A stretch of DNA of 64,000 nt, taken from positions 521,095 through 585,094 of the forward strand of contig NZ_KK020677.1 of the NCBI RefSeq assembly GCF_000307775.2. The letters are read 5' to 3'. The DNA comes from Stutzerimonas stutzeri KOS6 (lineage in GTDB: Bacteria > Pseudomonadota > Gammaproteobacteria > Pseudomonadales > Pseudomonadaceae). Numbering within the stretch: the stretch's first letter is position 1; each line of letters opens with the position of its first letter. Shown here one piece after another: positions 21,576-57,067 of this stretch. Under the pieces are notes generated by a model. It worked only from the letters and a program-made list of their open reading frames with translations, was not told where the DNA came from and did not search any database. A program made the translations under genes and the position numbers.

Positions 21576-21795
21576 ACTGGCGCGCGGCCGCGAACGGCTG
21601 CGCGCGCTGATCGAGTTCGCGCTGGGCGAAGGCTGGCGCGTGGTTCGCACGTCCGGCGGGCACCTGGAATTCACGAAGCAAGGCTGCGCGTCGATCTACA
21701 CCAGCTCGACGGCGAGCGACCACCGTGCCGACCGCAATGCCCGCGCACAGCTTCGCCGCGCCGACCGGCAAGCGCAGGAGAATGGCCGTGGCTGA
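21559..21795 (+). CDS. shi: Small Shi-like protein overlapping parA
   Basis: 78 residues in the position of ICEclc shi, a small gene between parA and bisD linked to the growth inhibition of transfer-competent cells. It starts inside parA (ATG 21559, with GGGAGGGG upstream) and ends inside the start of the ParB-like gene, a double overlap that suggests translational coupling. The sequence has a helical N-terminus (ELARGRERLRALIEFALGEG), a short central part (WRVVRTSGGHLEF) and a polar C-terminus. The middle looks like a YcfA/HicA-type fold (RTSGGHLEFTK), which might indicate RNA binding; that is tentative. Confidence 0.7.
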   Translation: MASAHELARGRERLRALIEFALGEGWRVVRTSGGHLEFTKQGCASIYTSSTASDHRADRNARAQLRRADRQAQENGRG

Positions 21796-23431
21796 GCTGA
21801 CGCCGCAGGACATGGCTGCCAAGCTGCTGGCCACCGGCTTCGAGCGCAGCGGCCCTTCGGCCGCGACCTTGAGCGACCCCATCGCCGACACGCCGATGGT
21901 GGTGACGCTGGACCAGTTGCGGCCCTACGACCACGACCCACGCGTGACGCGCAACCCGGCCTATGCGGAGATCAAGGCGTCCATCCGTGAACGTGGGCTG
22001 GACGCGCCCCCCGCGATCACGCGCAGGCCGGGCGAGGCGCACTACATCATTCGCAACGGCGGCAACACGCGGCTGGCGATCCTGCGCGAGTTGTGGAGCG
22101 AGACCAAGGAGGAACGCTTCTTCCGCATTGCGTGCCTGTTCCGCCCGTGGCCGGCGCGCGGCGAAATCGTGGCGCTGACCGGGCATCTGGCCGAGAACGA
22201 GCTGCGCGGCGGCCTGACCTTCATCGAGCGGGCCTTGGGCATCGAGAAGGCGCGCGAGTTCTACGAGCAGGAAAGCGGCCAGGCGCTGTCGCAAAGCGAA
22301 CTCGCGCGGCGACTGACGGCCGACGGCTATCCGGTGCCGCAGTCACACATCAGCCGCATGAACGATGCGGTGCGCTATCTGCTGCCGGCGATCCCGACGC
22401 TGTTGTACGGCGGATTGGGCCGGCATCAGGTGGACCGGCTCGCAGTGCTGCGCAAGGCGTGCGAGCGCACCTGGGAGCGGCGTGCGCTGGGCCGGCCGCT
22501 GACCGTGGACTTCGCTTCGCTGTTTCAGGATGTGCTGTCGCAGTTCGACACGCAGCCGGAGGGCTTCTCGCCCCAGCGCGTGCAGGACGAACTGGTGGGT
22601 CAGATGGCCGAGCTGCTGGAAGCGGACTACGACACGCTGGCATTGGAGGTCGATGACAGCGAAAGCCGTCAGCGAGTATTGACCAGCGAGCCGGCCGCGC
22701 CGAACCCGGCAACGCCTGTCGCACCTGCGGCGCCAGCCATCACGCCGCAACTGTCGCCCGCGGCGCCAACGCCACGGGACACCTCGCCCGTCGCGCCACC
22801 GGCAGAGACACCCTCGGCACCACCTGCCGCTGCACCAAACGCCCGGGACGGGCAGCGCGACGAGCGCCTGCAGGGGCACATCGTGACGCCGGCCCCAACC
22901 ACCGAGCGCCTGCAGTCCATCCAGAGGATGGTCGCGGATCAGCTCGGCGACAAGCTACCCGACTTCGAGGCCGACGCGCTGCGTGCGATCCCGGTGCAGG
23001 TTGGCGGGCTCTTTCCCATCTCGGATGTCTGGTACATCGAGCCGGGCCTGGACGTGCCGGATCGCCTGCGCGTGCATATCGCGCAGTTCGCTCGCGAGAT
23101 CGCGGGGGAAGCGGCGGTGGGCGACCACATCGAAGCCAGCGATGGCGGCATCGGCTTCGTCTGCGTGACGCCGGCCGTGGGCCAGGCGAAGGCGCTCCCG
23201 GCGTTCGCGCGTGCGATGCTGACCCTGCTGCACGCGCTGAGCACCGCGCCGGCACCCGCGACCGGGCTGGACAGCGCGCGGCTGGCCGATGACCTTGGGC
23301 CGCTGCTGCATGGTCACGGCGGCTTGGTCACGCGCCTGAGCGATGCCGGGCTGGTAAAGCTGTTCCGTCTGCTGCGCCTGGCGCGCCGGCTGCTGGATCT
23401 GGAAGCCGGCGTAGCGAGCCAGGATTCCTGA
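21782..23431 (+). CDS. parB: ParB-family ICE protein (BisD position)
   Basis: 549 residues from ATG 21782; GTG 21788 has the better spacing from AGGAG and is an alternative. Residues about 35-160 form a ParB/Srx nuclease-like domain (VVTLDQLRPYDHDPR, then IIRNGGNTRLAILREL), followed by a KorB/HTH-like middle (ALSQSELARRLTADGYPVPQSHISRM). Residues about 300-375 are a proline/alanine linker, and a helical C-terminus follows. It matches the PFGI-1-class ParB proteins of TIGR03764 type. In ICEclc the gene in this place, with the next one, encodes the BisDC activator that locks cells into the transfer-competent state. Confidence 0.88.
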   Translation: MAVAELTPQDMAAKLLATGFERSGPSAATLSDPIADTPMVVTLDQLRPYDHDPRVTRNPAYAEIKASIRERGLDAPPAITRRPGEAHYIIRNGGNTRLAILRELWSETKEERFFRIACLFRPWPARGEIVALTGHLAENELRGGLTFIERALGIEKAREFYEQESGQALSQSELARRLTADGYPVPQSHISRMNDAVRYLLPAIPTLLYGGLGRHQVDRLAVLRKACERTWERRALGRPLTVDFASLFQDVLSQFDTQPEGFSPQRVQDELVGQMAELLEADYDTLALEVDDSESRQRVLTSEPAAPNPATPVAPAAPAITPQLSPAAPTPRDTSPVAPPAETPSAPPAAAPNARDGQRDERLQGHIVTPAPTTERLQSIQRMVADQLGDKLPDFEADALRAIPVQVGGLFPISDVWYIEPGLDVPDRLRVHIAQFAREIAGEAAVGDHIEASDGGIGFVCVTPAVGQAKALPAFARAMLTLLHALSTAPAPATGLDSARLADDLGPLLHGHGGLVTRLSDAGLVKLFRLLRLARRLLDLEAGVASQDS

Positions 23432-23448: not shown

Positions 23449-24009
23449 ATGTCGGCACCGCACCCGCTCAACCAGGCCGTGATCGCCCAGGCCCTGCATG
23501 ACCTGCGCAACGGCCAGTTGCGCCGCTGCAAGGCCATGGGCTTCGGTGAGGAGGAGCTGGATGCGCTGAAGCACCCAGAACTCGTGAGCATGCTGGTGAA
23601 TGCCACGGTGTCGTGGTGTTCGGTGTCGGTGAACCGGGAAGTGTTGAAGCGGCTGCTGAGCCAGGTGCACGACGTGGAGCGGGAGATCGCCACGGTAGAC
23701 CGCATGCTGCGCCTGGGGGCGAGCACGGAGATGGTCAGCAAGTTCTACGGCCTCACGCATCAGGAAGTGGCGCTGCGCCGCGACATCCTCGGGCTGCCCA
23801 AGCGTAAGGGTCGGCATCCGGTGCTCGACGAGGCGCAGGACGTGGCCCTGTGGGAACGCTGGAAGGCCGGCGTCTCCGAGCGCCATATCGCCCTGACCGA
23901 CGACATGGCGATGCTGGAGCTGACCATGGATCTGGCCGAGGCCATGACTCTGCCCATGTCGGTGCTCTGGTCGGCGATACGGAACTGGATCGACCAGGGG
24001 CTGGTGTAG
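23449..24009 (+). CDS. DUF2857 protein (BisC position, FlhC-like activator subunit)
   Basis: 186 residues, starting 17 bp after the ParB-like gene with GCAGGAGGCTCCC upstream. The sequence has the DUF2857 features: LNQAVIAQALHDLRNGQLRRCKAMGFGEEEL, a helix-turn-helix-like region ASTEMVSKFYGLTHQEVALRRDILGL, and a helical C-terminus. DUF2857 proteins are distantly like the flagellar master regulator FlhC. In ICEclc the equivalent, BisC, acts with BisD as an autoactivating transcription factor. It closes the five-gene alpA-parA-shi-bisD-bisC unit and is followed at once by the STY4528-like gene. Confidence 0.85.
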   Translation: MSAPHPLNQAVIAQALHDLRNGQLRRCKAMGFGEEELDALKHPELVSMLVNATVSWCSVSVNREVLKRLLSQVHDVEREIATVDRMLRLGASTEMVSKFYGLTHQEVALRRDILGLPKRKGRHPVLDEAQDVALWERWKAGVSERHIALTDDMAMLELTMDLAEAMTLPMSVLWSAIRNWIDQGLV

Positions 24010-28985: not shown

Positions 28986-31001
28986 ATGCGCGTTTTCCTG
29001 TGCGAGAAGCCGTCCCAGGGCAAGGACATCGCCCGTGTGCTGGGTGCCGGTCAACGCGGCAACGGCTGCTACAGCGGCGCGGGTGTCGTCGTGACCTGGT
29101 GCATCGGTCATCTGGTGGAGGCGGTTCCGCCCGAAGGCTACGGCGAGCAATACAAGCGCTGGGCCATCGAGCAACTGCCCATTCTTCCTGAGCGTTGGCG
29201 TGTCGAGCCCAAGGCGGCGACCGCAGCGCAATTCAAGGTCGTGCAGCAGCTCGTCGCCAAGGCGGGCGAGCTGGTGATAGCGACCGACGCCGACCGCGAG
29301 GGCGAGATGATCGCCCGCGAGATCATCGACCTGTGCGGCTACCGCGGGCCGATTCAGCGCCTGTGGCTGTCGGCGCTCAACGATGCGTCGATCCGCAAAG
29401 CGCTGGGTGCGCTCAAGCCGTCCGCCGAGACGCTGCCGCTGTATTTCTCCGCACTCGCCCGATCGCGCGCCGACTGGCTGATCGGGATGAACTTGAGCCG
29501 CTTGTTCACACTGCTGGGGCGTCAGGCCGGCTATATGGGCGTGCTGTCGGTGGGGCGCGTGCAGACGCCGACGCTGAAGTTGGTCGTGGATCGTGATCGC
29601 GAGATCGCGCGATTCGTCTCCATGCCGTATTGGGCCGTGGATGTGCTGCTATCCCATGCCGGCCAATCCTTCACCGCGAGCTGGATACCGCCCGAAGGCA
29701 GCACGGATGCAGCGGGTCGCTGCCTTCAGCAGCCGGTGGCGCAGCAGGCTGCGGATCGCATTCGCGCGGCACGCGATGCGCAGGTCGTGTCGGTGGACAC
29801 CGAGCGCGTGCGCGAGGCACCGCCGCTGCCATTCGATCTGGGCACCTTGCAGGAAGTGTGTTCGCGTCAGCTCGGCCTCGATGTGCAGGAGACGCTGGAC
29901 ATCGCGCAGGCGCTGTACGAGACGCACAAGGCGACGACCTATCCGCGCAGCGACTCGGGATATCTGCCCGAAAGCATGCTCGCGGAAGTGCTGGCGGTGC
30001 TCGATGCACTGCTCGCCACCGATCCCAGCCTGCGGCCCTTGATCGGCCAGCTCGACCGCAACCAGCGTTCGCGCGCCTGGAACGACGGCAAGGTGTCGGC
30101 TCACCACGGCATCATCCCGACGCTGGAGCCCGCCAACCTGTCGGCCATGAACGAGAAGGAACTGGCTGTCTACCGGCTGATCCGCGCCCATTACCTCGCG
30201 CAGTTCCTCCCGCACCATGAGTTCGACCGGACGGTGGCGCAGTTCTCGTGCGGCAGTCAGTCGCTGGCGGCCGTGGGCAAGCAGATCGCCGTCATCGGCT
30301 GGCGTGAGGTGCTGGCGACGCCGGGGCCGGACGATGCCGATGGCGAGGATGCGCAGCGCAGCCAGGTGCTGCCCGCCCTGCATGCGGGCCTGTCCTGCCC
30401 GGTCGGAAAGGTGGATCTCAAGGCGCTGAAGACGCTGCCGCCCAAACCCTACACGCAGGGCGAGCTGATCAAGGCCATGAAGACCGTCGCCAAGTTCGTG
30501 ACCGACCCGCGCCTGAAACAGAAGCTGCGAGATACCACCGGCATCGGCACCGAGGCGACACGCGCCAACATCATCAACGGTCTGATCGGTCGCGGCTACC
30601 TGGTCAAGAAAGGCCGTGCCGTCCGCGCTTCCGATGCGGCATTCACGCTCATCGACGCGGTGCCCTCGGCCATCGCCGACCCCGGCACTACGGCGGTGTG
30701 GGAGCACGCGCTCGACATGATCGAGGCCGGCCAGATGGCGTTGGACACCTTCATCGAGAAGCAGTCCGTGTGGGTCGGTCAGCTCGTGCAGCAGTACCGC
30801 GGCGCGACGCTCTCGCTCAAGCTGCCGCCGGCGCCGGCCTGCCCGCAGTGCGGCGCGCCGATGCAGCAGCGCACGGGCAAGAGCGGCGCGTTCTGGTCCT
30901 GCTCGCGCTACCCGGACTGCAAGGGCACGCTGCCGATCGAGTCCCCGACGGGCCGGCGCAGCGCACCGCGCAAGCGGCGCGCTGCCTCCAAGGCGTCCTG
31001 A
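28986..31001 (+). CDS. topB: DNA topoisomerase III (ICE type)
   Basis: 671 residues; ATG 28986 with AAGGAGG upstream. The Toprim acidic motif DADREGE is at residues 101-107, the catalytic tyrosine in TYPRSD is residue 319, and SVGRVQTPTLKLVVDRDREI is complete. A four-cysteine zinc ribbon at the C-terminus (CPQCG to CSRYPDC) is followed by a basic tail. This type IA enzyme decatenates and relaxes single-strand-containing DNA during transfer or replication of the element. Length and domain order match ICE-borne TopB proteins, somewhat longer than the core enzyme because of the zinc ribbon. Confidence 0.95.
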   Translation: MRVFLCEKPSQGKDIARVLGAGQRGNGCYSGAGVVVTWCIGHLVEAVPPEGYGEQYKRWAIEQLPILPERWRVEPKAATAAQFKVVQQLVAKAGELVIATDADREGEMIAREIIDLCGYRGPIQRLWLSALNDASIRKALGALKPSAETLPLYFSALARSRADWLIGMNLSRLFTLLGRQAGYMGVLSVGRVQTPTLKLVVDRDREIARFVSMPYWAVDVLLSHAGQSFTASWIPPEGSTDAAGRCLQQPVAQQAADRIRAARDAQVVSVDTERVREAPPLPFDLGTLQEVCSRQLGLDVQETLDIAQALYETHKATTYPRSDSGYLPESMLAEVLAVLDALLATDPSLRPLIGQLDRNQRSRAWNDGKVSAHHGIIPTLEPANLSAMNEKELAVYRLIRAHYLAQFLPHHEFDRTVAQFSCGSQSLAAVGKQIAVIGWREVLATPGPDDADGEDAQRSQVLPALHAGLSCPVGKVDLKALKTLPPKPYTQGELIKAMKTVAKFVTDPRLKQKLRDTTGIGTEATRANIINGLIGRGYLVKKGRAVRASDAAFTLIDAVPSAIADPGTTAVWEHALDMIEAGQMALDTFIEKQSVWVGQLVQQYRGATLSLKLPPAPACPQCGAPMQQRTGKSGAFWSCSRYPDCKGTLPIESPTGRRSAPRKRRAASKAS

Positions 31002-31577
31002 TCCTCGCTTCCCCTGCCGCGCCGGCCACTTCACTGACGGCGAGGCAAACGTCCCGCACCGCGCGGGACTCCAAAGCGCGCGTCTCCTTCTGCAACGGTG
31101 TGCGCGCCCAGTCTGCCCGCCATCGGGCGACGGGGCGAGAAGGTCATTGCTCCACGAATCGCGCCCGCCGCCATTCCCTTGATCGGTGTGCCTTGCCTCG
31201 GTCACGAGGGGCTTCCTGACGCCTTGCCGCCGCGCGAGCCGTGAGGAGGCCCCTTGGGCCGAGGGTATTCCGTGCCGGTGCCCGCCGGCGGAACAACGGG
31301 CTCCCTTTGTGTGTGGATGCACGCCAGAGGTTTCCGGCCCCAGCCACGAAACGGGCCGGGTGCGATTGCTGACGCAGCGAACGGCTTTGACGACGGCCCG
31401 CGCTGACGCAGCCCACAGGTGGTTTTCCTTCCTCTCCAGCCGAAGGCCCGCATGGCCTTCGGCGCCCTGGTCCTTGCCTTGTCCCGTGACGCGGGCCTGC
31501 CCTAAAGCGGGCCGTCCGCGATTCGGTTTTCCCTGCGACGGCAGCCATGCCTCGCGCCCATCCTCACGCCATGCGTT
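31002..31577. other. Hairpin-rich non-coding tract after topB
   Basis: No convincing ORF on either strand; frames here are compositionally unlike proteins. Strong inverted repeats are present: GTCCCGC/GCGGGAC (31051-31069) and a perfect 10-bp stem GCCGAAGGCC/GGCCTTCGGC with a 5-base loop (31439-31463). In an element where most genes nearly touch, nearly 600 bp of structured DNA could hold an origin, a transfer origin or a long leader RNA. It runs into the three-hairpin element at 31578. Confidence 0.5.
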
Positions 31578-31646
31578 GCTGACAGTCGTCAGCGGCATGC
31601 CCTGGCAGTCTCGGTCTTCAAGACTGCAACGCGGTTCGCCGCGTTG
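31578..31646 (+). ncRNA. Three-hairpin leader RNA element, copy 1
   Basis: Hairpin 1 is GCTGAC/GTCAGC (31578-31593). An 11-nt linker contains CATGCCC. Hairpin 2 is GCAGTC/GACTGC with an 11-nt loop ending CTTCAA (31605-31627). Hairpin 3 is CAACGCGG/CCGCGTTG closed by TTCG (31627-31646). The same architecture with compensating base changes occurs at 33520 and 35040. It lies 134 nt upstream of the small gene at 31780. A cis-acting leader or small RNA is likely; the ligand or partner is unknown. Confidence 0.75.
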
Positions 31647-31724
31647 ACCGATCCAGTCCGCTTCGCATCGCCCACCGCGGACGCTCGCCGGCCTGGCGAC
31701 GATGCACTTTTCTCAACCACCCTA

Positions 31725-31759
31725 GGGGAACTCCATCCCCTGCGGGATGCGTGCTCCCC
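31725..31759 (+). promoter_or_regulatory. Leader hairpin before the 31780 gene
   Basis: GGGGA (31725-31729) pairs with TCCCC (31755-31759) around an inner stem CATCCC/GGGATG (31734-31749). It ends about 10 nt before AAGGAG. It is one of a series of G/C hairpins placed just upstream of ribosome-binding sites in this module. Confidence 0.45.
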
Positions 31760-31779
31760 GACCCACCAAGGAGCACGGC

Positions 31780-32016
31780 ATGTCTGAACCTTCCGCATCT
31801 TCCTCTGCAATCGCAGTACGCAGTAGTGCGCTGGCGCTGGCCTGGACCGGCAAGCGTTTGCCGCTACAGGTGCTGCGCAGCGCGGCCGGCCACTACATCG
31901 GCACGCAAGACGACGAAGGCCCGGTATCGCGGGAGTCCGTCGAGTATTTCCCGACCCACCTCGCAGCACAGCGCGCTCTGGATACCCATGCCTGGACACA
32001 GCGCGCTCACCCCTGA
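31780..32016 (+). CDS. ICE hypothetical protein, 78 residues
   Basis: ATG 31780, preceded by AAGGAG. The sequence is a short alpha/beta protein with ALALAWTGKRLPLQVLRSAAGHYIGTQDDEGPVSRESVEYF. Its end (AAQRALDTHAWTQRAH) is helical. I know no characterised relative; similar small proteins occur in the topB-to-helicase segment of ICEclc-like elements. It is preceded by the first copy of the three-hairpin RNA element and its own leader hairpin, so it is probably the first gene of a transcription unit with the next gene, 25 bp downstream. Confidence 0.7.
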   Translation: MSEPSASSSAIAVRSSALALAWTGKRLPLQVLRSAAGHYIGTQDDEGPVSRESVEYFPTHLAAQRALDTHAWTQRAHP

Positions 32017-32041
32017 TTCCCACCCTTCAAGGAGTTCTCTC

Positions 32042-32434
32042 ATGAATCTGTCTTTACCCGAAGACGTGCTCGATCAGATGGCGCTGGAACAGGCGCACTT
32101 CGACGCTGCACCGCAGGCCTTCTTCGAGGCCTGGAAGCGCGGCGCGCAGATCGCCGGCCACGAGTGGTTCGGCGACGGCACACGCGAAGGTCTGCAGCGT
32201 GCCACCACCAAGTGGGACCTGCGGCCCAACATGCTGATGCTCAACGACGCCCTGGGCGTGCTGAGCAGCGGTCAACGCATGTTCCTGTCCGCGATGGTGA
32301 GCTTCTACAACTCCCGCGAGGGCGGCGCGATGCTCAAGCGTTGCGGCTTCGAGGGGCTGTCCGACTTCGGCGGCCTCGATCTGGAACGGCGCCAGGTCAT
32401 CGCTGACCTCACGCTGCACTACAACGGCTGGTGA
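32042..32434 (+). CDS. ICE hypothetical protein, 130 residues
   Basis: ATG 32042, with AAGGAG in the 25-bp gap after the previous gene. The protein is mostly helical: LPEDVLDQMALEQAHFDAAPQAFFEAW, then TTKWDLRPNMLMLNDALGVLSSGQRMFLSAMVSFYN and a C-terminus FGGLDLERRQVIADLTLHYNGW. No motif or family with known function was recognised. It belongs to the conserved but uncharacterised gene set of this ICE module. Confidence 0.72.
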   Translation: MNLSLPEDVLDQMALEQAHFDAAPQAFFEAWKRGAQIAGHEWFGDGTREGLQRATTKWDLRPNMLMLNDALGVLSSGQRMFLSAMVSFYNSREGGAMLKRCGFEGLSDFGGLDLERRQVIADLTLHYNGW

Positions 32435-32474
32435 GCCGCGCCTGGCAACCCACCGTCCTTTCATCCCACCCCAC

Positions 32475-32510
32475 GAGGGACATGCGTCCCCGTTCGGGGC
32501 CATGTCCCTC
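32475..32510 (+). promoter_or_regulatory. Long hairpin between ICE transcription units
   Basis: GAGGGACATG (32475-32484) pairs with CATGTCCCTC (32501-32510) around an inner CCCC-gttc-GGGG stem, followed by CTTCCTTTC. It may end transcription of the 32042 gene or act as a leader hairpin. It is followed by a ribosome-binding site and an 8-codon ORF (32532-32558). Confidence 0.5.
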
Positions 32511-32635
32511 CTTCCTTTCGCAGGAGCGGCCATGTCCCGAATCACCATCTTCCACTGACCTGCACCGCCCGCCACCAGGGCGGCCCGACGCCGCGGCCGG
32601 CTGACCGGTTGCCACTTCATCCACTCGCTGGGGTT

Positions 32636-32655
32636 CAATCCCCGGCAGGGGATTG
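32636..32655 (+). promoter_or_regulatory. Leader hairpin before the 32685 gene
   Basis: CAATCCCC and GGGGATTG are 8-bp arms with a GGCA loop, ending about 12 nt before the CTGGAGG ribosome-binding site of the next gene. It resembles the ATCCCC/GGGGAT cores at 25198, 26840 and 28756. Confidence 0.5.
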
Positions 32656-32684
32656 CCTCGGCCATCCTCTGCTGGAGGAATCCC

Positions 32685-33401
32685 ATGTCTCATTCCAAAA
32701 ACCCCTTCGTCCGCGGCTACGATGGCCTGTCCGTGCAGCGGCTGCTGGCGATTTCCTACGACGACGACTGCCCGCTGAGCTATCTGCCGCTGCACGTCTC
32801 GCAGTCGCACCTGCCGGACAGCGAGGTCGAGCGCCATGCCTGCGTCTTCTGCGACGACTTCGCGCTGATCACCGAGGGCCAGGACGTGCCGCCCGAGCTG
32901 GACGCGCAGTGCCCCAGCCACGGTCTCGCCCGAAACCTCGTCTACGCCGTCATGGCCGAAGAAGCCGGCCAACCGCTGCACGTCGCCGATACCTACTCCG
33001 AGGAAGCCGCGCGCGAGGTGGTGCGGCGCCTGCGCTTCGAGACCGGCTTCTACAGCCGTGCCTGGGAAATCAGTTCGGCGCACATCACCGAAGAGGCCGG
33101 CCGCTATCTGGCCAACCTGGCCGACATCGCCACGCCGAGCGGTTTTCTGTTCGTCGCCTTCCGCATCCCGTACAGCCCCGCGATCGGCGTGAAGTTGATC
33201 GCCACCCCCTGGACGGATGCGAACCTGCAGCATGTCGAGGGCATCACCGCCGAAGAGCTGCGGCAGGAGCACCGGGCCAAGGGCGTGCCGGAGTCCTTCG
33301 TGGAAGTGTTGCACCTGGCTGCGCTCGCTGACGTTCGCATGTTGGTGTTCGATGCCGACGCGCCCGTGCTGGACGGGCTGACGCTCTACGACGACGAGTA
33401 A
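32685..33401 (+). CDS. ICE hypothetical protein, 238 residues
   Basis: ATG 32685, with GGAGG upstream. The N-terminal part contains LAISYDDDCPLSYLPLHVSQSHLPDSEVERHACVFCDDFALI, with the pair CVFCDD. The middle is helical (YSEEAAREVVRRLRFETGFYSRAWEISSAHI), and the C-terminus is acidic. I do not recognise a characterised family; it may belong to one of the unnamed ICE domain families. An intrinsic terminator follows 14 bp after the stop, so it forms a single-gene unit. Confidence 0.72.
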   Translation: MSHSKNPFVRGYDGLSVQRLLAISYDDDCPLSYLPLHVSQSHLPDSEVERHACVFCDDFALITEGQDVPPELDAQCPSHGLARNLVYAVMAEEAGQPLHVADTYSEEAAREVVRRLRFETGFYSRAWEISSAHITEEAGRYLANLADIATPSGFLFVAFRIPYSPAIGVKLIATPWTDANLQHVEGITAEELRQEHRAKGVPESFVEVLHLAALADVRMLVFDADAPVLDGLTLYDDE

Positions 33402-33415
33402 CCCGCAACCCATTC

Positions 33416-33442
33416 GAGCCCCACGTCGGGGCTCTTCTTTTT
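33416..33442 (+). terminator. Intrinsic terminator after the 32685 gene
   Basis: GAGCCCC-acgtc-GGGGCTC is followed by TTCTTTTT. The perfect 7-bp GC-rich stem and the T-run give a clear rho-independent terminator 14 bp after the stop codon. The next structured RNA copy starts about 80 bp downstream. Confidence 0.85.
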
Positions 33443-33519
33443 CGCGGAACGCGGTGCCGGCGCATTGCCGATTCCCAACGGACGGCCGCCGCCATGTGCC
33501 GCACGCTGGCCGCATGTTC

Positions 33520-33587
33520 GCTGGCGTTGCCGGCAGCATGCCCAGGTAGTCGAGACCTTCAAGACTGCGGCGCGGTTCGCCGTGCTG
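33520..33587 (+). ncRNA. Three-hairpin leader RNA element, copy 2
   Basis: Hairpin 1 is GCTGGC/GCCGGC (33520-33534). An 11-nt linker with CATGCCC follows. Hairpin 2 is GTAGTC/GACTGC with an 11-nt loop ending CTTCAA (33546-33568). Hairpin 3 is CGGCGCGG/CCGTGCTG closed by TTCG (33568-33587). Relative to copy 1 the stems differ by paired or G-U-preserving changes. It starts 77 bp after an intrinsic terminator and 104 nt before the next gene, so it belongs to that gene's leader. Confidence 0.75.
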
Positions 33588-33632
33588 GTTGTTTCGTTCT
33601 CCGGGCGCATCCGCGTCCATCCACCTCACCCT

Positions 33633-33668
33633 CAAGGGACAGACCTCCCTTGCGGGCGGGAGTCCCTT
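33633..33668 (+). promoter_or_regulatory. Leader hairpin before the 33691 gene
   Basis: AAGGGA and TCCCTT arms enclose an inner CTCCC/GGGAG stem with TTGCGGGC in the loop. The structure ends about 8 nt before the AAGGAG ribosome-binding site of the downstream gene. Confidence 0.45.
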
Positions 33669-33690
33669 GGTTGCCACAAGGAGTCTCCCC

Positions 33691-34491
33691 ATGGATACCC
33701 AAGCCATCCGTGCACAGATGCCAACGCTTGTCGTCGGTCATGTGCCTTCCAACGTCCGTTCGTTCAAGTTCAACATCTTCGACGGCCAGCCCAAGGTTTC
33801 GACGCTGGGCTTTCACATCGACCCGAAGCCTTTCGAGGGCAAGGTCATCGCCACCACCGACGAGGCTATCGTCGTCAAGACGGGGCGAGCCGAGTTCGCG
33901 GTGCTCGATCGCACGCTCGTGACCCAAGTGCCCGACGAGGGCGCCAAGGTGCAGGTCGAACCCTATGTCAGACGCCGCTTCGACGGTCGGCGGGCGGACA
34001 CGCCCGAGGAGCACACCGAGTTCACGGGCGACGGCCAGCCCTACACGGTGAAGCGGTTCGTGCTCGGGTCCGCACCGGCGAAGCTGCCGATCCCCGAGCC
34101 GCGCTGCCCCGACCTGCAGGAACTGATCGACCAACTGGAGCAGTTGCCCGCTCCCGACGGCTTCCGGCGCATCACCCACATGCTGGTGGACGCCGGTGCT
34201 CGGGACATCACCTGGGTCGATCCGCTGCCCGCCGACATCATCCGCACGCCACCGGCCATCGGCTTCACCGTCGCCACGATGAAGTTCCAGGGTCACGTCA
34301 CCGTGCTGTATGAGCGTGGCCTCGACCTCTACGCGGTGGAGCTGCGCCGCGACGGCGAGCTGATTGAACGGGTCGATGAGGTGTTCTTCGACACCCTCGG
34401 CGAGACGCTGGAACGGCTGATCGACGACGGGAGCTGGCGCCGCATCCGAGTGCAGTGCCTGTTGTCGGGTCGCAAGGCTGTCCGGCACTGA
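33691..34491 (+). CDS. ICE hypothetical protein, 266 residues
   Basis: ATG 33691, with AAGGAG upstream; longer in-frame starts lie inside the leader hairpin. The N-terminal half has short strands (TLVVGHVPSNVRSFKFNIFDGQPKV, then EGKVIATTDEAIVVKTGRAEFAVLDRTLV) resembling an OB-like or barrel domain. The C-terminal half has TVATMKFQGHVTVLYERGLDLYAVELRRDG. No catalytic motif is visible, and I know no characterised relative. It is preceded by the second copy of the three-hairpin element. Confidence 0.72.
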   Translation: MDTQAIRAQMPTLVVGHVPSNVRSFKFNIFDGQPKVSTLGFHIDPKPFEGKVIATTDEAIVVKTGRAEFAVLDRTLVTQVPDEGAKVQVEPYVRRRFDGRRADTPEEHTEFTGDGQPYTVKRFVLGSAPAKLPIPEPRCPDLQELIDQLEQLPAPDGFRRITHMLVDAGARDITWVDPLPADIIRTPPAIGFTVATMKFQGHVTVLYERGLDLYAVELRRDGELIERVDEVFFDTLGETLERLIDDGSWRRIRVQCLLSGRKAVRH

Positions 34492-34503
34492 TCTCCCAGC
34501 AGC

Positions 34504-34524
34504 TTCCCGCCTTCGCGGCGGGAA
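34504..34524 (+). promoter_or_regulatory. Leader hairpin before the DUF3085 gene
   Basis: TTCCCGCC and GGCGGGAA form an 8-bp stem with a TTCGC loop, 12 bp after the previous stop and about 34 bp before the next start. CTCTCTTCCT follows, so it could also act as a partial terminator. Confidence 0.45.
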
Positions 34525-34557
34525 GCCTCTCTTCCTGCATCCCTGGAGATCACACCC

Positions 34558-34920
34558 ATGACTGTTCGATTCAAAGGCACGGAGCTGCGGCCCGTGCTCG
34601 CCGAAGCGGTGGCGAATCAATGCCGCGTCATCCTGGTCAAGGATCAGGGCGTGTACTTCCTGGCCGAGCGCGGCGAGCGCCGACCCGATGGTCGCCAGAA
34701 GACCATCGCCTATGCCGCCGGCTGCAACCCGGATGTCGATGCGTTCGATGACTGGTGGGAGCTGGCGCGCGCCGAGTTCGGCGGCGATGACTTTGGCGAG
34801 TTCTTCGATCCGCAGGAGGGCGTGTTTGCGCGCATCCTGCACAGCGAGGACGACCTCGACGTGTCCGCCACCACGACACACCTGTCGCTGCAGGCGGTTC
34901 CTCCGCCCAGCGGTAACTGA
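34558..34920 (+). CDS. DUF3085 ICE protein
   Basis: 120 residues. The DUF3085 pattern is plain: MTVRFKGTELRPVLAEAVAN, CRVILVKDQGVYFLAERGE, AYAAGCNPDVDAFDDWW and RAEFGGDDFGEFFDP. These are small acidic proteins of plasmids and ICEs with no known activity. The gene has a leader hairpin upstream and a strong terminator 14 bp after its stop. Confidence 0.85.
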   Translation: MTVRFKGTELRPVLAEAVANQCRVILVKDQGVYFLAERGERRPDGRQKTIAYAAGCNPDVDAFDDWWELARAEFGGDDFGEFFDPQEGVFARILHSEDDLDVSATTTHLSLQAVPPPSGN

Positions 34921-34933
34921 CCGCCCATCCCTG

Positions 34934-34959
34934 GCCCCCGCTCCGGGGGCTTCTTTCTT
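34934..34959 (+). terminator. Intrinsic terminator after the DUF3085 gene
   Basis: GCCCCCG-ctc-CGGGGGC is followed by TTCTTTCTTC. The GC-rich stem and pyrimidine/T tail indicate rho-independent termination. The third RNA element copy begins 80 bp later. Confidence 0.8.
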
Positions 34960-35039
34960 CCCGGCAATGCGGACAGCCGCGAGTGCCGATTGCCGCTCGC
35001 ATGCGCGCCGTCCTGGCGCCACGCTTCCGGCCATGTTCC

Positions 35040-35110
35040 GCTGACGTCCGTCAGCGACATGCCCAGGCAGCCACGATCTTCAAGGCTGCGATGCGGTTCC
35101 GACCGCGTTG
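35040..35110 (+). ncRNA. Three-hairpin leader RNA element, copy 3 (upstream of DUF3577)
   Basis: Hairpin 1 is GCTGAC/GTCAGC (35040-35055). An 11-nt linker contains CATGCCC. Hairpin 2 is GCAGCC/GGCTGC with an 11-nt loop ending CTTCAA (35067-35089). Hairpin 3 is CGATGCGGT/ACCGCGTTG with a TCCG loop (35089-35110). The stems keep pairing although the bases differ from copies 1 and 2. It lies 155 nt before the DUF3577 gene. A DUF3577 RNA motif has been proposed from comparative genomics; whether this is it cannot be checked here. Confidence 0.78.
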
Positions 35111-35264
35111 ATCACTCCAGTTCGCACCGGCATCCATGCGCGAACGGCCATCGGTTTTCGATGGCGATGCCACCAAGCTGTTCCATCAACCCACGCGGGG
35201 GTTCCACACCTTCCCCGCCTTGGGTCGGGTGTGTCTCCGCCTCTTTGTTCCCAGGAGATTCACC

Positions 35265-35816
35265 ATGACCACTTCCAACGAAAAGTCCTACTTCGATCTG
35301 CACATCACCGGCCTCGGGTACCTCAATCGCATCCGCGAAGTGAAGCCCAAGAAAGGCGATGCGTTCCTGGCCTGCGACATCGCGGCTCTGAACGGTCCCA
35401 GCGATGACGTCTCGTATGTGCGTTTCGACACGCGCGTATCGGGTTCGGAAGCGCAGCACCTGGTGCGCCGCTGCATTCAGGCCGTCGACGCCGAGAAGAA
35501 GGTGATGATCGGCTTCCGCTTGGGCGACCTGTGGACCGACACCTTCACCTACTCCAAGGGCAAGCGTGCCGGCGAGCAGGGGGTGAGCCTCAAGGCCCGC
35601 CTGCTGTTCGTCAGTTGGATCAAGGTCGACGGCAAGCTCGTCTACAAGGCCGAACCCAAGCCGACCGAGACCGACGAGCGGGACCCGGAAGTCCCTGTGA
35701 CGTCCGACGCGCCCGCCGCGCAGCAAGCCTCGGCACCGGAGCCTTCCAAGCCCCTCGCCGATGCTGCCGACGACGCTGCCGATGCCCCCGCATTGGCCGT
35801 TGCCGAGTCGTTCTGA
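35265..35816 (+). CDS. DUF3577 / STY4534-family ICE protein
   Basis: 183 residues from ATG 35265, with AGGAG upstream. The domain reads YFDLHITGLGYLNRIREVKPKKGDAFLACDIAALNG, then YVRFDTRVSGSEAQHLVRRCIQAVDAEKKVMIGFRLGDLW, an OB-fold-like pattern that fits a DNA-binding protein. An acidic, alanine/proline-rich tail (about residues 140-183) resembles SSB tails. Relatives are annotated as ICE replication proteins of the STY4534 family. The leader contains the third RNA element copy. Confidence 0.85.
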   Translation: MTTSNEKSYFDLHITGLGYLNRIREVKPKKGDAFLACDIAALNGPSDDVSYVRFDTRVSGSEAQHLVRRCIQAVDAEKKVMIGFRLGDLWTDTFTYSKGKRAGEQGVSLKARLLFVSWIKVDGKLVYKAEPKPTETDERDPEVPVTSDAPAAQQASAPEPSKPLADAADDAADAPALAVAESF

Positions 35817-35820
35817 TCCG

Positions 35821-35844
35821 CAAGGCCCAATCCCCGGGGCCTTG
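35821..35844 (+). promoter_or_regulatory. Leader hairpin before the DUF3275 gene
   Basis: CAAGGCCC (35821-35828) pairs with GGGCCTTG (35837-35844). It ends 26 nt before the next start and starts 4 nt after the DUF3577 stop. It may attenuate as well as separate the two genes. Confidence 0.5.
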
Positions 35845-35870
35845 TCTTCTCTTCGTCCCAGGAGACCTTC

Positions 35871-36482
35871 ATGATCACCATCCCCGGCCAACTGGCCATC
35901 AAGACCATCCACGGCAGGAACGGCGACTTCAACGTCGGCCGCCTGGCGACCTCGATCGGCGAGTTCGTCGTGAAGAACGCCGAGCTCGATCAGTACCGCG
36001 AGGGCAAGTACGACGGTGATTTCGTCATCGTCGAGATTCGCCCCTCCACGTACAACGCCAACGGCCGCATGGTCATCGAGATCCGCGCCCATCTGGGCGG
36101 GATGACGCTGTCCAACATCGACGCCCTGAGCCGCGACGAAGCCCGCCGGCTGAGTCCGCAGGAAGTCGATCCGATCGACGAGGAAGCGCAGGCGCCCGTG
36201 CCGGCAACGCCCCCGGCCAAGCCGAAGGCGAAGCCGCGCAGTCCGCGCGATCCCCTGGTCGATACCACGCCGTTCGGCAGCGAACCGGCTCCCGTGTCCG
36301 CTGCGGCCTCGGCCGAGGCAGACGACGCGGCGCTGTTCGGTGCCTTGTGGCCCCTGGGCGAGACCGTGAAGCTCGATGCGACCGTGGATCGTCGTGTGCT
36401 GCGTCAGCAGCGAGACCGTCTCGACAAGCTGGGCTACGAGTTCGCTCCGTTGTCCCAGGACTGGCACCTCAAAGCTGCCTGA
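35871..36482 (+). CDS. DUF3275 ICE protein
   Basis: 203 residues. The N-terminal domain (ITIPGQLAIKTIHGRNGDFNVGRLATSIGEFVVKN, then YDGDFVIVEIRPSTYNANGRMVIEIRAHLG) is typical of DUF3275. A proline- and lysine-rich linker follows (about residues 105-145). A C-terminal part with LRQQRDRLDKLGYEFAPLSQDWHLK ends the chain. The function is unknown; it accompanies DUF3577 in most elements of this family, and the two genes are separated only by a leader hairpin and a ribosome-binding site. Confidence 0.82.
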   Translation: MITIPGQLAIKTIHGRNGDFNVGRLATSIGEFVVKNAELDQYREGKYDGDFVIVEIRPSTYNANGRMVIEIRAHLGGMTLSNIDALSRDEARRLSPQEVDPIDEEAQAPVPATPPAKPKAKPRSPRDPLVDTTPFGSEPAPVSAAASAEADDAALFGALWPLGETVKLDATVDRRVLRQQRDRLDKLGYEFAPLSQDWHLKAA

Positions 36483-36571
36483 TCCATCCGCCGCCTTGCG
36501 CGGCATACCGCCACCCGCCGGGGTTCTCCCCCGACGGGGAGGGCTCCGGCCTTTTCTTCAAGGAGACCCTC

Positions 36572-36937
36572 ATGGGCTGGACCTTCGTTCGTCAGACGCG
36601 CGATCAGTTGATCCGCGAGCTGATCGCTCCGCAGGCGTCCGAACGCGCTTGCTGCGAAGTCATCGACCACACGCTGGACGGCGACGTTCTGTGGACCGTG
36701 GTTCGCGTCACCGCCAGGCAGGCGGGCGTCATGGGCCTCACGGCCGGTGAGTCCGTCTGCTACATCGGCTGCCACCTGCTGGAAAGCTCGGGCGGCGATT
36801 GGGGCTACAAGTCCCTCGATGAGTCCGTGCATCCCTACTACTACTCGTGCCCGCTGCGCTATCTCGACATGGCGCCGGTGCAAAGCCCCGAGTGGCGCGA
36901 GCGGGTTCACCGCTTCCACGCGGGCCGCGCTGTCTAG
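36572..36937 (+). CDS. ICE hypothetical protein, 121 residues (possibly DUF6927-like)
   Basis: ATG 36572, preceded by AAGGAG. It starts MGWTFVRQTRDQLIRELI, and the second half contains VCYIGCHLLESSGGDWGYKSLDESVHPYYYSCPLRYLDM. The tail YKDMDE/YKSLDES with a following CP-RxLD segment resembles a family I recall as DUF6927, but I am not certain. No enzymatic motif is visible. A GC-rich leader with several G- and C-runs precedes it. Confidence 0.7.
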   Translation: MGWTFVRQTRDQLIRELIAPQASERACCEVIDHTLDGDVLWTVVRVTARQAGVMGLTAGESVCYIGCHLLESSGGDWGYKSLDESVHPYYYSCPLRYLDMAPVQSPEWRERVHRFHAGRAV

Positions 36938-41801: not shown

Positions 41802-44330
41802 TTATTCAGATTGAGACATCATTGAGCCGATTAACCGCATGTTACGCTCAAGCTCTGCCGTCGATTGATACTCGATCAGCTGAGTTCGTTCGGCGTCTTC
41901 TTCGACCGTCAGTCCACTCTGCGCTTGCTTGCGGTTCAGTATCGCCAGACGAAGGCCTCGGTGAACGGGCGTACTTGTGTCGCGAAGCCGACTCCAGAGT
42001 CCTTCAGCGGCTTCGACCTCACCAAATCGGATTTCGTATTTGCACCGTAGCCCAACCTGAGCGTCGTGGTTGATGGCACCAAATCGTTTCTGAAGTCGCC
42101 CGAGCGTGGTCAAAGCGCCTTCGCACTCTCCTGCCTCGATCTCGCAGTTCGCTAAATTGGCGAGAACCTCAAAGGGAGGGTGGGCTATCTTTTGGTCAGC
42201 GATACGGGCGAAGCGTAGTGCATCCTCAGGGCTCCCGTTTGCTTGTTCGAAGGTGGAGCGGCGATGCTCAGCGAATCCACTTGAATCAATGCGGTCAAGG
42301 ATCTCAAGGGCGCGCTCAGCAGTAGGGAGATCGCCAAGCCTAAGCGCAATCGTGCATTTCAAATCAACTACATATGGGTTATGCGGAGACTGCTGCTCGG
42401 CCTGACGAATATACTCTTCGGCGGCTGGAAGATCCCCCGTTTCAAAAAAGCAGCTTGCCAGTTCCCGGTGGATGGCGACGCCTCGGCGGCCATTGGCGAG
42501 ACTCTTCTTGTAAGCCTCGATCGCTTCAGGATACTCTCGCTTCCGTCGCGCGGCGAAGCCCCGCACGTAGTACGCCTCCTTAAGTTCACCGAGGCGAAGC
42601 AGCTCGCTGATATGCTGCTCTGCTTCATCATATCGCTCTTTCCGAATGAGAGCTTGCGCGACATAGCGTCGTACATCAACGCTATCGGGCCGCACGTCCA
42701 AGGCAGACGAACCGTACTTGATAGCGAGGTCGTAGTCTTGATCGTGATAGCTCCTAGTTGCTACGTTGATCAGATCTGCGGCAAATCCAATCGCGAATCG
42801 AGAGTCAGCCTGGCTTCCTGCAAGGAGGTTGGCTCGGAAAATCGTTTGCCCGAGATCAAGTCGTGCGTCATCGTCAGGCTCATCTGCCAGGTACGCTTCA
42901 AGAAGCTCGGCCACTTTCCTGGTATCGACGCGAAGTCCGCCAAATGCTCTGTATGCTGCATCACGGATGGGCTCTGAGATGCGATAGTGCATTCCGGCAG
43001 GCATAACAAACGCGAGGTCAAGTAAGAAGTTCAGATCATCGCTTGTATCGTGTGACGTTTGCGCGCAGTACGCCACAATGACCTGAAGTGGGAGAGGGCT
43101 GAAGCTTGATAGGATCTGCAGGATCGTCTGCATGCTCGGTGTTAGCGATCTGTTCTCCCTTAAGTGCCGGAGAAACTGTTCGGCATTAAAATTCACCAAT
43201 GCACGTTGATCAGTTACGACTTGCGAGATTCCGCGAAGCCGAGCCTCATCAAGAATAAATCGTACAGCGGGAGGATAGCCACGAGCGTAGGTTGCGATTG
43301 CCGTAAGCGCGGTTCGATCGAATACCAAGCCGACGTCGCGTCCGGCGATACGCAACAGATTCTGCGTTGATGTTTGATCAAGTTCGGGGACGCGCACGGA
43401 CGGGCACGGGTTTTCGGCAGGTCGATACAGCCTCCTGCTTGAAACGATCATGGCGTCAGTATCCCGATCAGACGAAATCGCGTTGTACAGCGCATCGAAC
43501 TCGGGTCTCATCACGCCATTCTCGGCGGCTAGGGCGCCTTCGTCGACAAATATCGGCAACGTCCCCGCTTGGCAGGCCTGACGCAACAGAGAGGTTATCT
43601 CGTCGACCAAGTTCTCCTTCGCTTTTTGCTCTTGCTGCTTCAGAAAAGCCACCAAGTCGGAGATACCCCCTGGTGAAATCGCTTCGGCGACGCGGATCGA
43701 TGTCTCAGGCAAGAGATCGCCCGCGTGGAGGTTAATTGGCAATATTGAGGCAAAGGATAGGTTGTCGCGTGCAATCGCTTGGACAAGCGAGCGTCTGCCG
43801 ATACCCTTTAGGCCGTAAACGATTAGAGGCGGGCGGAAATTGGGATCTGTGAAGCCTGATATGGTTTCGAGCGATTGCTCGATCTCAGCCCTACGTCCGA
43901 CAAAGTATCTCGGAATGCGCTCTCCAAGACGTTGACTGATGATACGCCGGATGTCGGTGGCGATCAGACCCGGCGATGCCTCTTTCCTGATGAGCGTTGC
44001 CCGCATCCATTCAGGAAGGTCGTCGTGGGTTAGCTCCTGATCAACGATATAGGTTGTCACCTTACTGAGTGCATTCTTGATGAGCGCTTCGGAAGCGAGT
44101 TCTATTTCTAATTTAACCCAATCTCGTTGGAGCGAGGCCCGGCTTGCAAACAGAATAAATACATCTGATCGATCGATGCCTTTGATGATGGCATCACGGA
44201 ATTCATCGCCAACCGAAAACTCGAACTCGTCGTAAATGACGGCTGCGCGCCCGAGATTGCGCGCAACTTCTCTCACTATATGTTTGTCAACATGTCCGTG
44301 AGATAGAAAGGCTCTTGGGAACTTTGTCAT
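41802..44330 (-). CDS. TIR-domain STAND ATPase with C-terminal TPR repeats (candidate anti-phage NADase)
   Basis: 842 residues. The N-terminal TIR domain (about 5-130) starts AFLSHGHVDKHIV and has the WVKLE segment, whose E75 is the likely catalytic glutamate. A STAND/NACHT-like ATPase follows: YFVGRRAEIEQ at about 142, a P-loop GLKGIGRRS at 173-181 where the usual lysine is arginine, and Walker B LPIFVDEG at about 259. From about residue 500 there are TPR-like repeats (DYDLAIKYGSSALDVRPDSV, ERYDEAEQHISELLRLG, EYPEAIEAYKKSLANG). TIR domains of this kind degrade NAD+ after activation. The gene has no clear Shine-Dalgarno; TATACT lies 11-16 bp before the ATG, so it may be almost leaderless. It is AT-richer than the core. 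Confidence 0.85.
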   Translation of the reverse strand: MTKFPRAFLSHGHVDKHIVREVARNLGRAAVIYDEFEFSVGDEFRDAIIKGIDRSDVFILFASRASLQRDWVKLEIELASEALIKNALSKVTTYIVDQELTHDDLPEWMRATLIRKEASPGLIATDIRRIISQRLGERIPRYFVGRRAEIEQSLETISGFTDPNFRPPLIVYGLKGIGRRSLVQAIARDNLSFASILPINLHAGDLLPETSIRVAEAISPGGISDLVAFLKQQEQKAKENLVDEITSLLRQACQAGTLPIFVDEGALAAENGVMRPEFDALYNAISSDRDTDAMIVSSRRLYRPAENPCPSVRVPELDQTSTQNLLRIAGRDVGLVFDRTALTAIATYARGYPPAVRFILDEARLRGISQVVTDQRALVNFNAEQFLRHLRENRSLTPSMQTILQILSSFSPLPLQVIVAYCAQTSHDTSDDLNFLLDLAFVMPAGMHYRISEPIRDAAYRAFGGLRVDTRKVAELLEAYLADEPDDDARLDLGQTIFRANLLAGSQADSRFAIGFAADLINVATRSYHDQDYDLAIKYGSSALDVRPDSVDVRRYVAQALIRKERYDEAEQHISELLRLGELKEAYYVRGFAARRKREYPEAIEAYKKSLANGRRGVAIHRELASCFFETGDLPAAEEYIRQAEQQSPHNPYVVDLKCTIALRLGDLPTAERALEILDRIDSSGFAEHRRSTFEQANGSPEDALRFARIADQKIAHPPFEVLANLANCEIEAGECEGALTTLGRLQKRFGAINHDAQVGLRCKYEIRFGEVEAAEGLWSRLRDTSTPVHRGLRLAILNRKQAQSGLTVEEDAERTQLIEYQSTAELERNMRLIGSMMSQSE

Positions 44331-44366
44331 TTTTTAATCTTAGTATATTTGGCTGCATGGCGGACG

Positions 44367-46130: not shown

Positions 46131-46372
46131 GGCCGAGTCCTCCGCACCAAGCCGCGATCGAACTCAAGCGCGCCGATCATGTAGAGCAGGTCCAGCGACA
46201 GGACGAACCACTGGTAATCAATTGGGGCATTGGGCGCGTGCAGGGAGCGACGGCCACGCACCTCGTCCCATAGCCGCGACATAGTCAGCGGCCGCTTAAG
46301 GATGTCGAGGACTTCTGCACCGACGCCAATGAGTGCGCGGTCGGAACGAACATGCTTCGTCGGCAGAATCAT
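46127..46372 (-). CDS. ABC-three-component system middle component (MC6-like)
   Basis: 81 residues: MILPTKHVRSDRALIGVGAEVLDILKRPLTMSRLWDEV, then FVLSLDLLYMIGALEF. The pattern of a small winged-helix-like protein with MILP at the start and LDLLYxIGAL near the end matches middle component 6 of ABC-3C systems. It overlaps both neighbours by 4 bases, so the three proteins are made together and are expected to form one complex, the middle component bridging ATPase and effector. Confidence 0.82.
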   Translation of the reverse strand: MILPTKHVRSDRALIGVGAEVLDILKRPLTMSRLWDEVRGRRSLHAPNAPIDYQWFVLSLDLLYMIGALEFDRGLVRRTRP

Positions 46373-55436: not shown

Positions 55437-55438
55437 TC

Positions 55439-55717
55439 TCAAGTCAACCTGTTTCTACGGCCCGTTCTGTAGCGCTCAACCTGCCGCATCCAGGGCCGGA
55501 TATCTGGCTTCCGCCACCGGTTTGAGACGTCACCTGGATCTGCGTGCTGATCCGCTCCTTCAAGGCGGGTACGTGTGAAATGAACGCCTATCAGCTTGCC
55601 GTCCTGCTGCAGGCCTGCGAGGGTTTCCAAAGCTGAAGTAGGCGAGTAGCCGCAATCTGGAGCCACTGGGGGCGCTCTGAAAACCATTTCGTCAGTGATG
55701 CCGATATCCCGCTCATG
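55439..55717 (-). pseudogene. Remnant of a gene following brxL (N-terminus and later fragment)
   Basis: An ATG at 55717 starts a frame with protein-like content, MSGISASLTKWFSERPQW and LQIAATRLLQ. It then runs into a stop after a shift, while another frame (ending 55439) continues with LAGLQQDGKLIG and arginine-rich text. This looks like a gene whose start survived and whose body was deleted and shifted. I could not identify the family; position suggests an accessory gene of the BREX island. Confidence 0.5.
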
Positions 55718-55720
55718 TTA

Positions 55721-56429: not shown

Positions 56430-56446
56430 TCTGGCTATATCTGCTG

Positions 56447-57061: not shown

Positions 57062-57067
57062 TCTTGG

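Follow-up and report, generated by a model that had tools for sequence, protein, structure and literature searches.

The 64,000-nucleotide (nt) window of Stutzerimonas stutzeri KOS6 analysed here carries three copies of radC RNA, a family catalogued in Rfam as RF01754, in the leaders of genes of an integrative and conjugative element (ICE). Across the family, the three hairpins of this RNA (P1, P2 and P3) are joined by further covarying pseudoknotted helices (PK1 and, in one class, PK2), a promoter-like motif stands at a fixed distance upstream of many copies, and in most leaders the Shine-Dalgarno (SD) sequence of the following gene is paired in a hairpin of its own. The reading that we favour, at about an even chance of being correct, is that radC RNAs are 5' leader domains controlling translation of the following gene in ICE transfer-competence transcripts.

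Identity and occurrence of the RNA copies

All three copies lie on the forward strand and match the Rfam model end to end (copy 1, 31560–31705, 121.8 bits; copy 2, 33503–33659, 99.1 bits; copy 3, 35022–35170, 128.3 bits; gathering score 40), and they are the only matches in the window at the gathering threshold. Chance pairing, considered as a source of the stems, was rejected on the cmscan E-values obtained for the three (3e-24, 8.8e-23 and 1.3e-17) together with the family-wide covariation (0 of 500 shuffles). The RNAs are new copies of an already catalogued family, a point that the earlier note on this DNA, made from the sequence alone, had missed. A separate DUF3577 RNA motif was reportedly proposed in 2017; none was matched in a Rfam search of 31300–35400 at E ≤ 5, which returned the three radC RNAs and two matches far below threshold. 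Weinberg et al. (2010) listed radC RNA as certainly an RNA, probably cis-regulatory, scored "?" as a riboswitch and found in Proteobacteria; no function reported since that listing was found in the open-access PubMed Central (PMC) literature, with supplements outside its scope. Published work drawn on below also includes PMC2864571, PMC7736820, PMC3334931 and PMC2892462.

The stems and spacings that had been described for the three copies are present in the sequence as claimed. The inner stems of P1 are GCTGAC/GTCAGC (31578–31583 with 31588–31593 in copy 1), GCTGGC/GCCGGC and GCTGAC/GTCAGC in copies 1 to 3, those of P2 are GCAGTC/GACTGC, GTAGTC/GACTGC and GCAGCC/GGCTGC, each with an 11-nt loop ending in CTTCAA, and P3 is AACGCGG-TTCG-CCGCGTT and relatives of it. 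P1, P2 and P3 occupy 31570–31599, 31605–31627 and 31628–31645 in copy 1, 33513–33540, 33546–33568 and 33569–33586 in copy 2, and 35032–35061, 35067–35089 and 35090–35109 in copy 3. The position in leaders also holds, with distances of 134, 104 and 155 nt from the ends of the spans first described to the start codons at 31780, 33691 and 35265; the boundaries were drawn too narrowly, and the RNA with its SD hairpin would span from the estimated +1 positions (31571, 33514 and 35032) to these start codons.

The host genome has ten radC copies above the gathering score and one below it. Four are on the contig of the window (C3), three in the window and one just to its right at C3:587218, and six are on contig C1. 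The latter six stand within 45 kb (140611–185615, loci L014–L016) with ICE-type genes alongside and probably mark a second ICE of this genome. The distribution of the family is patchy, with radC in 6 of 398 genomes of a phylum-level sample and 133 of 398 of a family-level sample, counts made with stricter filters that lose weak matches; it was present in all 37 genomes reached via 39 of the 68 DUF3577 loci, and none of 14 control genomes had a match. When the 411 bp surrounding copy 3 were searched against plasmids, 13 records were returned, one of which covered 80% of the query. By a lenient criterion, an open reading frame (ORF) of at least 40 amino acids (aa) starts within 430 nt of P3 in 180 of 180 distinct matches, at a median distance of 154 nt in one of the two main groups and 103 nt in the other.

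Covarying helices and pseudoknots across the family

Two covariance models retrieved 283 core matches in 145 sources (locus L035 was searched with model R1, not R2); dropping 103 with identical 100-mers left 180 distinct matches, and dropping 97 near-duplicate or short ones left 83 non-redundant copies. Among 43 diverse cores, P1–P3 together with PK1 showed 92.5% standard pairs and 121 double-changed cells, a number that none of 500 shuffles reached, and 22 of the 28 pairs had changed on both sides. The earlier note had taken covariation as strong evidence for a functional structured RNA in ICE gene leaders; that evidence is modest from three copies alone and strong across the family, and the functional RNA itself is borne out. 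Unpaired stretches between the covarying helices, CATGCCCAGG and CTTCAA, are conserved as well.

PK1 and PK2 are two further covarying pseudoknotted helices beyond P1–P3. PK1, which lies outside the covariance models, joins the 5' half of the P2 loop to the nucleotides directly 3' of P3 (31646–31650 in copy 1, 33587–33590 in copy 2, and 35075–35078 with 35110–35113 in copy 3) and occurs in variants such as GATC/GATC, GGTC/GACC, GACC/GGTY and GGGT/ACCC. At least four base pairs form in 80 of the 83 non-redundant copies; with partners reassigned in 500 trials, the number of such copies averaged 50.1 and never exceeded 57. PK2 is an H-type pseudoknot, GTTCGC/GCGAAC crossing GCATCC/GGATGC, of class A, the copies that precede DUF3577, RadC and several other genes; class B comprises the copies before a KfrB-like gene, as copy 2, and before a 216-aa protein. 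A helix search found PK2 in 61 of 63 class A copies, with about 25 expected. Its helix a-a' is paired in 99.7% of 378 cells with 31 double changes (63 sequences; 0 of 500 shuffles); b-b' rests on the helix list and not on the alignment (b' is misaligned in A12), and 4 of the 61 class A helices are out of register. In copy 1 PK2 pairs 31656–31661 with 31677–31682 and 31665–31670 with 31700–31705, and in copy 3 it pairs 35120–35125 with 35140–35145 and 35129–35134 with 35166–35171. Class B, copy 2 included, lacks PK2: similar helices in its clusters 1, 5 and 8 together were at the level of shuffles (8 of 20, 10.0 expected).

Pseudoknots would not appear in the displayed Rfam structure line, in which three a' nucleotides instead pair with the end of b' as a 3-base-pair helix incompatible with PK2. 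Rivas (2020; PMC7657543) reports covarying pairs of radC that are absent from the Rfam and ZWD structures, and PK1 and PK2 may be partly known already in other papers or supplements. At the level of the family our RNA does not differ from RF01754; what is added here are PK1, PK2, the reading of the first model columns as part of a promoter, and the SD hairpin 3' of the model.

The strand on which the structure forms can be read from its wobble pairs. Among 3868 paired cells of the model-fitted alignment, the gene strand has 254 G-U against 25 A-C pairs (80 against 8 without P3), and PK1, outside the models, has 17 against 3 of 264 cells, counted in 11-nt loops only. With G-U exceeding A-C on the gene strand, the structure is therefore one of the mRNA, and a structure of template-strand single-stranded DNA (ssDNA), a candidate rejected on the 254-to-25 count, is unlikely. 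The corresponding count for PK2 (16 against 61) was discarded as invalid, as it had included flanking mismatches of helices picked as maximal.

A promoter-like motif upstream of the RNA

Upstream regions were aligned on the RNA start, and 65 of the 82 non-redundant copies with 130 nt upstream entered the motif profile (clusters 3 and 8–16 were excluded beforehand). The 65 share two boxes at a fixed distance, AA at -55/-54 with GG at -50/-49, and T.CCG[AT]TT from -37 to -30. The conserved columns correspond to AAAGCGG...GATTCGGTTTT at 31504–31530 for copy 1, AACGCGG...TTGCCGATT at 33448–33474 for copy 2 and AATGCGG...TGCCGATT at 34966–34992 for copy 3, all on the forward strand. Inside the first model positions, an A (56 of 65) and a T (63 of 65) stand four columns apart; in copy 1 this -10-like hexamer is CATCCT at 31559–31564 (forward strand), overlapping the start of the Rfam match. 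From their sequence, the first Rfam model columns look like promoter -10 DNA.

A point of reference for this register comes from ICEclc of P. knackmussii, identified from its ORF coordinates and PinR sequence. The -10-like hexamer has the same register as the mapped -10 of PinR (TGTCGATCCT). The published PinR transcript begins with a T that precedes the start codon by 25 nt; counted on the sequence, this T is seven nt after the hexamer. By this spacing, transcription of the three copies would therefore start at P1 (31571, 33514 and 35032).

An expectation-maximization search over seven ICEclc promoters gave no clear motif; the motif was obtained by the alignment described above. A matrix trained without loci L082, L084 and L158–L160 and scanned over 80 kb of ICEclc on both strands ranked the radC sites at 88819, 85832 and 82807 first to third and the copy at 89717 twelfth; the site 67,635 beside the predicted P67231 came fourth and PinR fourteenth, with seven non-promoter positions in ranks five to eleven and one in rank thirteen. 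Relatives of the ICEclc copies were kept in training, and therefore only P67231 and PinR, which have no radC, are independent. The ICEclc copy at 59140 has no motif among the top 22 of the scan, and radC copies before RadC have none; these motif-less copies, together with published reads that are not depleted upstream of ORF58432, fit an operon-internal position.

The terminators described before copies 2 and 3 are present as terminator-like hairpins at 33416–33434 (seven pairs) and 34933–34951 (eight pairs). A weaker five-pair match before copy 1 (31507–31519) overlaps its promoter motif, and 31000–36600 as a whole has 12 terminator-like sites with 3.4 expected. The P3 hairpin of copy 2 with a U-rich tract (33568–33590) was itself flagged as terminator-like, and similar tracts occur in other class B copies; premature termination at P3 of copy 2 is conceivable.

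The Shine-Dalgarno sequence is predicted to be paired in most leaders

In 37 of 46 leaders, PK2 or P3 is followed by two hairpins, H1 and H2, ahead of the start codon, and the second pairs the SD sequence. For 46 non-redundant led starts, the predicted probability that the SD is unpaired had a median of 0.176; for the controls, 398 further genes from these loci with unmatched composition, the median was 0.302 (p = 1.3e-8). The probability was below 0.2 in 27 of 46 led starts and 109 of 398 controls. Only two members of cluster 2 entered this test, because the gene caller skipped the 78-aa ORF of the copy 1 type in favour of a 130-aa one. In the KfrB group, H1 and H2 covary, with 10 double-changed cells against 2.6 expected (0 of 500 shuffles).

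In the window, folding places H1 of copy 1 at 31724–31741 and H2, which sequesters the SD, at 31751–31757 with 31770–31776, before the start codon at 31780. H1 and the SD-locking H2 of copy 2 are made of four segments (33633–33639, 33646–33652, 33658–33669 and, with the SD, 33677–33689) before the start codon at 33691, as given by folding and by pair counts in relatives. In copy 3, H1 pairs 35195–35200 with 35213–35218 and H2 pairs 35228–35238 with 35254–35264, directly before the start codon at 35265 (all on the forward strand). An alternative pairing joins segment 1, part of H1, to segment 3, part of H2. It scores at least 5 in 29 of 37 leaders, and the mean score of 5.89 compares with 4.16 when segment 3 is scrambled. 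Pairing of segments 1 and 3 is a possible basis for a two-state switch. The linker before H1 in class A is G-poor (6%) and pyrimidine-rich, with a median of 10 nt and a range of 0–27 in 38 copies.

Comparison with published ICEclc transcripts

By coordinates, the five radC copies of ICEclc precede ORF89247, ORF88400, ORF84835, ORF81655 and ORF58432. ORF89247 and ORF88400 were not recovered by the gene caller, and the ORF called after the copy at 89717 (cluster 4) differs from the one named ORF89247. For at least ten ORFs the ends found here differ from the published ones by no more than 1, and for three they are 13–16 off; PinR has a published coordinate of 96,204 and its -10 was found at 96,032, about 170 apart.

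P88400 and P81655 are published transfer-competence promoters. For ORF84835 and ORF89247, upstream reads rise and reporter fragments are silent, which the authors ascribed to incomplete fragments or processing; the site upstream of ORF84835 (copy 85832, locus L158) is the second-best motif match in the 80 kb. The ORF81655 transcript, concluded to be about 14.5 kb long, is abundant, yet it gave no product in 5' rapid amplification of cDNA ends and a weak primer-extension product about 250 bp before the start codon. Here radC begins 235 nt, and the estimated +1 lies 224 nt, before that start codon, and a folded leader beginning with radC would account for the difficulty in mapping this 5' end. 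According to PMC9286271, coverage upstream of ORF81655 is the highest of all with a reporter output like that of Pint, and its authors suggest post-transcriptional mechanisms.

Proposed working of the leader and points that weigh against it

We favour the following sequence of events. Transcription would run from an element-specific promoter directly upstream and start at about P1, so that the 5' nucleotides of the RNA form P1 and then P2, P3 and PK1, with PK2 as well in one class. The SD would be held in a hairpin reaching the start codon, and the pseudoknotted 5' domain, with a single-stranded linker in most class A copies, would load or block the ribosome at this locked site. The structure, its strand, the fixed upstream motif and the SD hairpin are supported by computation. 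From them we infer the start point, translation as the regulated step and the mode of regulation. Where the earlier note had left the regulated process unknown, this would narrow it to the ICE transfer-competence programme, and what the note said of ligand or trigger stands.

By analogy with the +42 tisB leader of E. coli, which has a pseudoknot near the mRNA 5' end and a single-stranded region upstream of a sequestered ribosome-binding site (PMC7708055), ribosome loading or blocking through the 5' domain is most likely how the leader would work. The likeness is offered as a works-like comparison only: the sequence is another, the linker of radC is shorter, and one RNA leads several genes.

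Several observations count against this account. The comparison of SD pairing drew its controls from other genes of the same loci, at GC 61% versus 58%, and 9 of 46 leaders have an open SD, an SD that pairs downstream or no H1. Double changes are absent from H2 of the DUF3577 group, whose covariation score is no higher than that of shuffles (138 of 500), and within-family covariation of the pairing between segments 1 and 3 was looked for and is absent. The linker is short, with medians of 10 nt in class A (38 copies) and 5 nt in class B (18 copies), and is nearly absent in several. As for the motif, the exact 8-mer TGCCG[AT]TT is always at -38/-37 but occurs in only 12 of 82 upstream regions, and PMC9286271 describes a common 27-bp motif that P58432 has and no other region shares. 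This conflicts with our motif, of which there is none before ORF58432 and the second-best score before ORF84835; the motif found here may therefore not be the published ICEclc motif. Finally, transfer to an isogenic recipient is reported not to change measurably when ORF88400–84388 or 81655–75419 is deleted (PMC9286271). Given the published motif statements and the short linkers, our confidence in a translational leader is therefore only moderate.

Alternative explanations

In the first alternative, an OB-fold protein encoded by the element, a single-stranded DNA-binding protein (SSB) or DUF3577, would regulate translation from its own leader or from those of other genes, and ssDNA formed in transfer would titrate the protein and free translation. 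DUF3577 is the most frequent radC-led gene in our set of loci, which were partly chosen for it, and radC lies at most 800 nt upstream in 64 of 66 judged DUF3577 loci (not in L083 and L086; L035 and L052 were not judged). Its predicted structure (mean pLDDT 74.2, with a disordered tail) is an OB fold of the SSB/PriB type: the best Foldseek match is to an SSB at E 1.9e-4 (TM 0.35 by query length), and comparison with PriB gives Z 9.8 over 86 residues at a root-mean-square deviation of 2.1; a sequence search of the PDB gave one match, unconvincing at E 1.5. The leaders contain pseudoknots, and in phage T4 the gene 32 SSB represses its own mRNA through a structured leader (PMC535899). However, fold likeness shows no function, the ICE ssb gene of the window has no radC match ahead of it, and, unlike the T4 operator, radC leads many genes that are not recognisable as SSB by profile search. 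The STAXI motif (Weinberg 2010) is likewise pseudoknotted, lies near SSB, topoisomerase and antirestriction genes and was considered for a function with ssDNA; it differs in having repeated pseudoknots, and Rfam gave no STAXI match in the window, the presence of STAXI in that library being unchecked. Altogether we regard control by an OB-fold protein as plausible but unlikely.

A wider form of this idea, to which we give little credence, makes radC a shared checkpoint of the ICE transfer-competence programme, keeping a module untranslated until ssDNA of the element titrates the OB-fold protein (DUF3577 or the ICE SSB). The pseudoknotted domain would then sit at +1 of several operons, segments 1-2-3-4 before the start codon would act as the two-state switch, and genes for establishment and DNA handling would come on upon transfer or entry.

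A riboswitch in which a small molecule controls the opening or closing of the SD hairpin would suit the conserved unpaired stretches between covarying helices and the single core placed before differing downstream regions. The led genes that can be named share no common metabolic pathway, and the authors of 2010 scored the RNA "?"; we consider a riboswitch quite unlikely.

A processive antitermination element, similar to put or EAR, would promote read-through of terminators in long transfer operons. In its favour, the transcript probably starts with radC, terminator-like hairpins follow copy 3 (35820–35845 and 36517–36550), and the ORF81655 transcript is long. Against this, Northern analysis of the ICEclc units from 88819 and 85832 gave published sizes of 3.0 and 2.6 kb (2.7 and 2.3 kb calculated), which fit stopping before the next copy, the copy at 59140 lacks a high-ranking promoter motif, and the SD hairpin is left unexplained. 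Antitermination is improbable on this evidence.

An Frpo-like ssDNA promoter folded on the incoming strand in conjugation, and thus no RNA at all, has a published precedent in Frpo and would go with the 190 of 190 radC matches of DUF3577 loci that lie on the DUF3577 strand, but it is very improbable, as a promoter of the Frpo type is published to lie on the transferred strand, the template, whereas G-U here is about tenfold above A-C on the gene strand, the PK1 count agrees with mRNA, and the leaders are reported to be transcribed in donor cultures.

Led genes and the surrounding element

On the forward strand, copy 1 leads a 78-aa ORF (31780–32016) and a 130-aa ORF (32042–32434), neither with a Pfam or NCBIfam match, and copy 2 a 266-aa protein (33691–34491) with a sub-threshold KfrB-domain match, after which comes a DUF3085 protein (34558–34920). 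Copy 3 leads the DUF3577/STY4534 family ICE replication protein with the predicted SSB/PriB-like OB fold (35265–35816). Across the set, led genes encode DUF3577/STY4534, RadC, a KfrB-like protein, small unknown proteins and a HATPase-domain protein. Two long DUF3577 proteins (L015:12476–13387 and L053:9599–10525) resemble tandem duplications. Of 22 aligned DUF3577 proteins, 17 have SF as their last residues, behind a disordered tail, which faintly recalls the C-terminal tip of SSB.

Neighbouring genes (ICE_PFGI_1 ParB at 21725–23431, DUF2857 at 23449–24009, STY4528, PFL_4669, SSB, TraD and a topoisomerase-like ORF resembling ICEclc ORF91884) mark the element as an ICE of the ICEclc/PAGI-2 type. 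The family name is also found in PMC7423338. ParB and DUF2857 correspond to BisD and BisC of ICEclc by gene order, and the N-terminus of DUF2857 is closely similar, so that transfer-competence regulators seem to be present in this element. Farther along on the reverse strand, 41802–47307 holds defence-like cargo, comprising a TIR/TPR protein that PADLOC lists as TIR-NLR and an ABC-3C pair that carries CTD10/DUF2326 domains and matches PADLOC PDC-M68A/B. An insert at 54051–57271, also on the reverse strand, has BrxA, a match to the C-terminal part of BrxL and a mad1-like helix-turn-helix protein, and is possibly a partial BREX/MADS-type cluster.

Implications

radC RNA is an orphan family, and its tie to ICEclc, for which mapped transcripts, reporter strains, RNA-seq and regulators are available, opens its function to direct tests. 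Translation gating offers a reading both of the rising ORF84835 and ORF89247 reads without promoter activity of the cloned fragments and of the modest reporter output of ORF81655 despite the high coverage of its leader. Should these leaders gate translation, ICEs would carry a layer of RNA control over the genes that accompany transfer.

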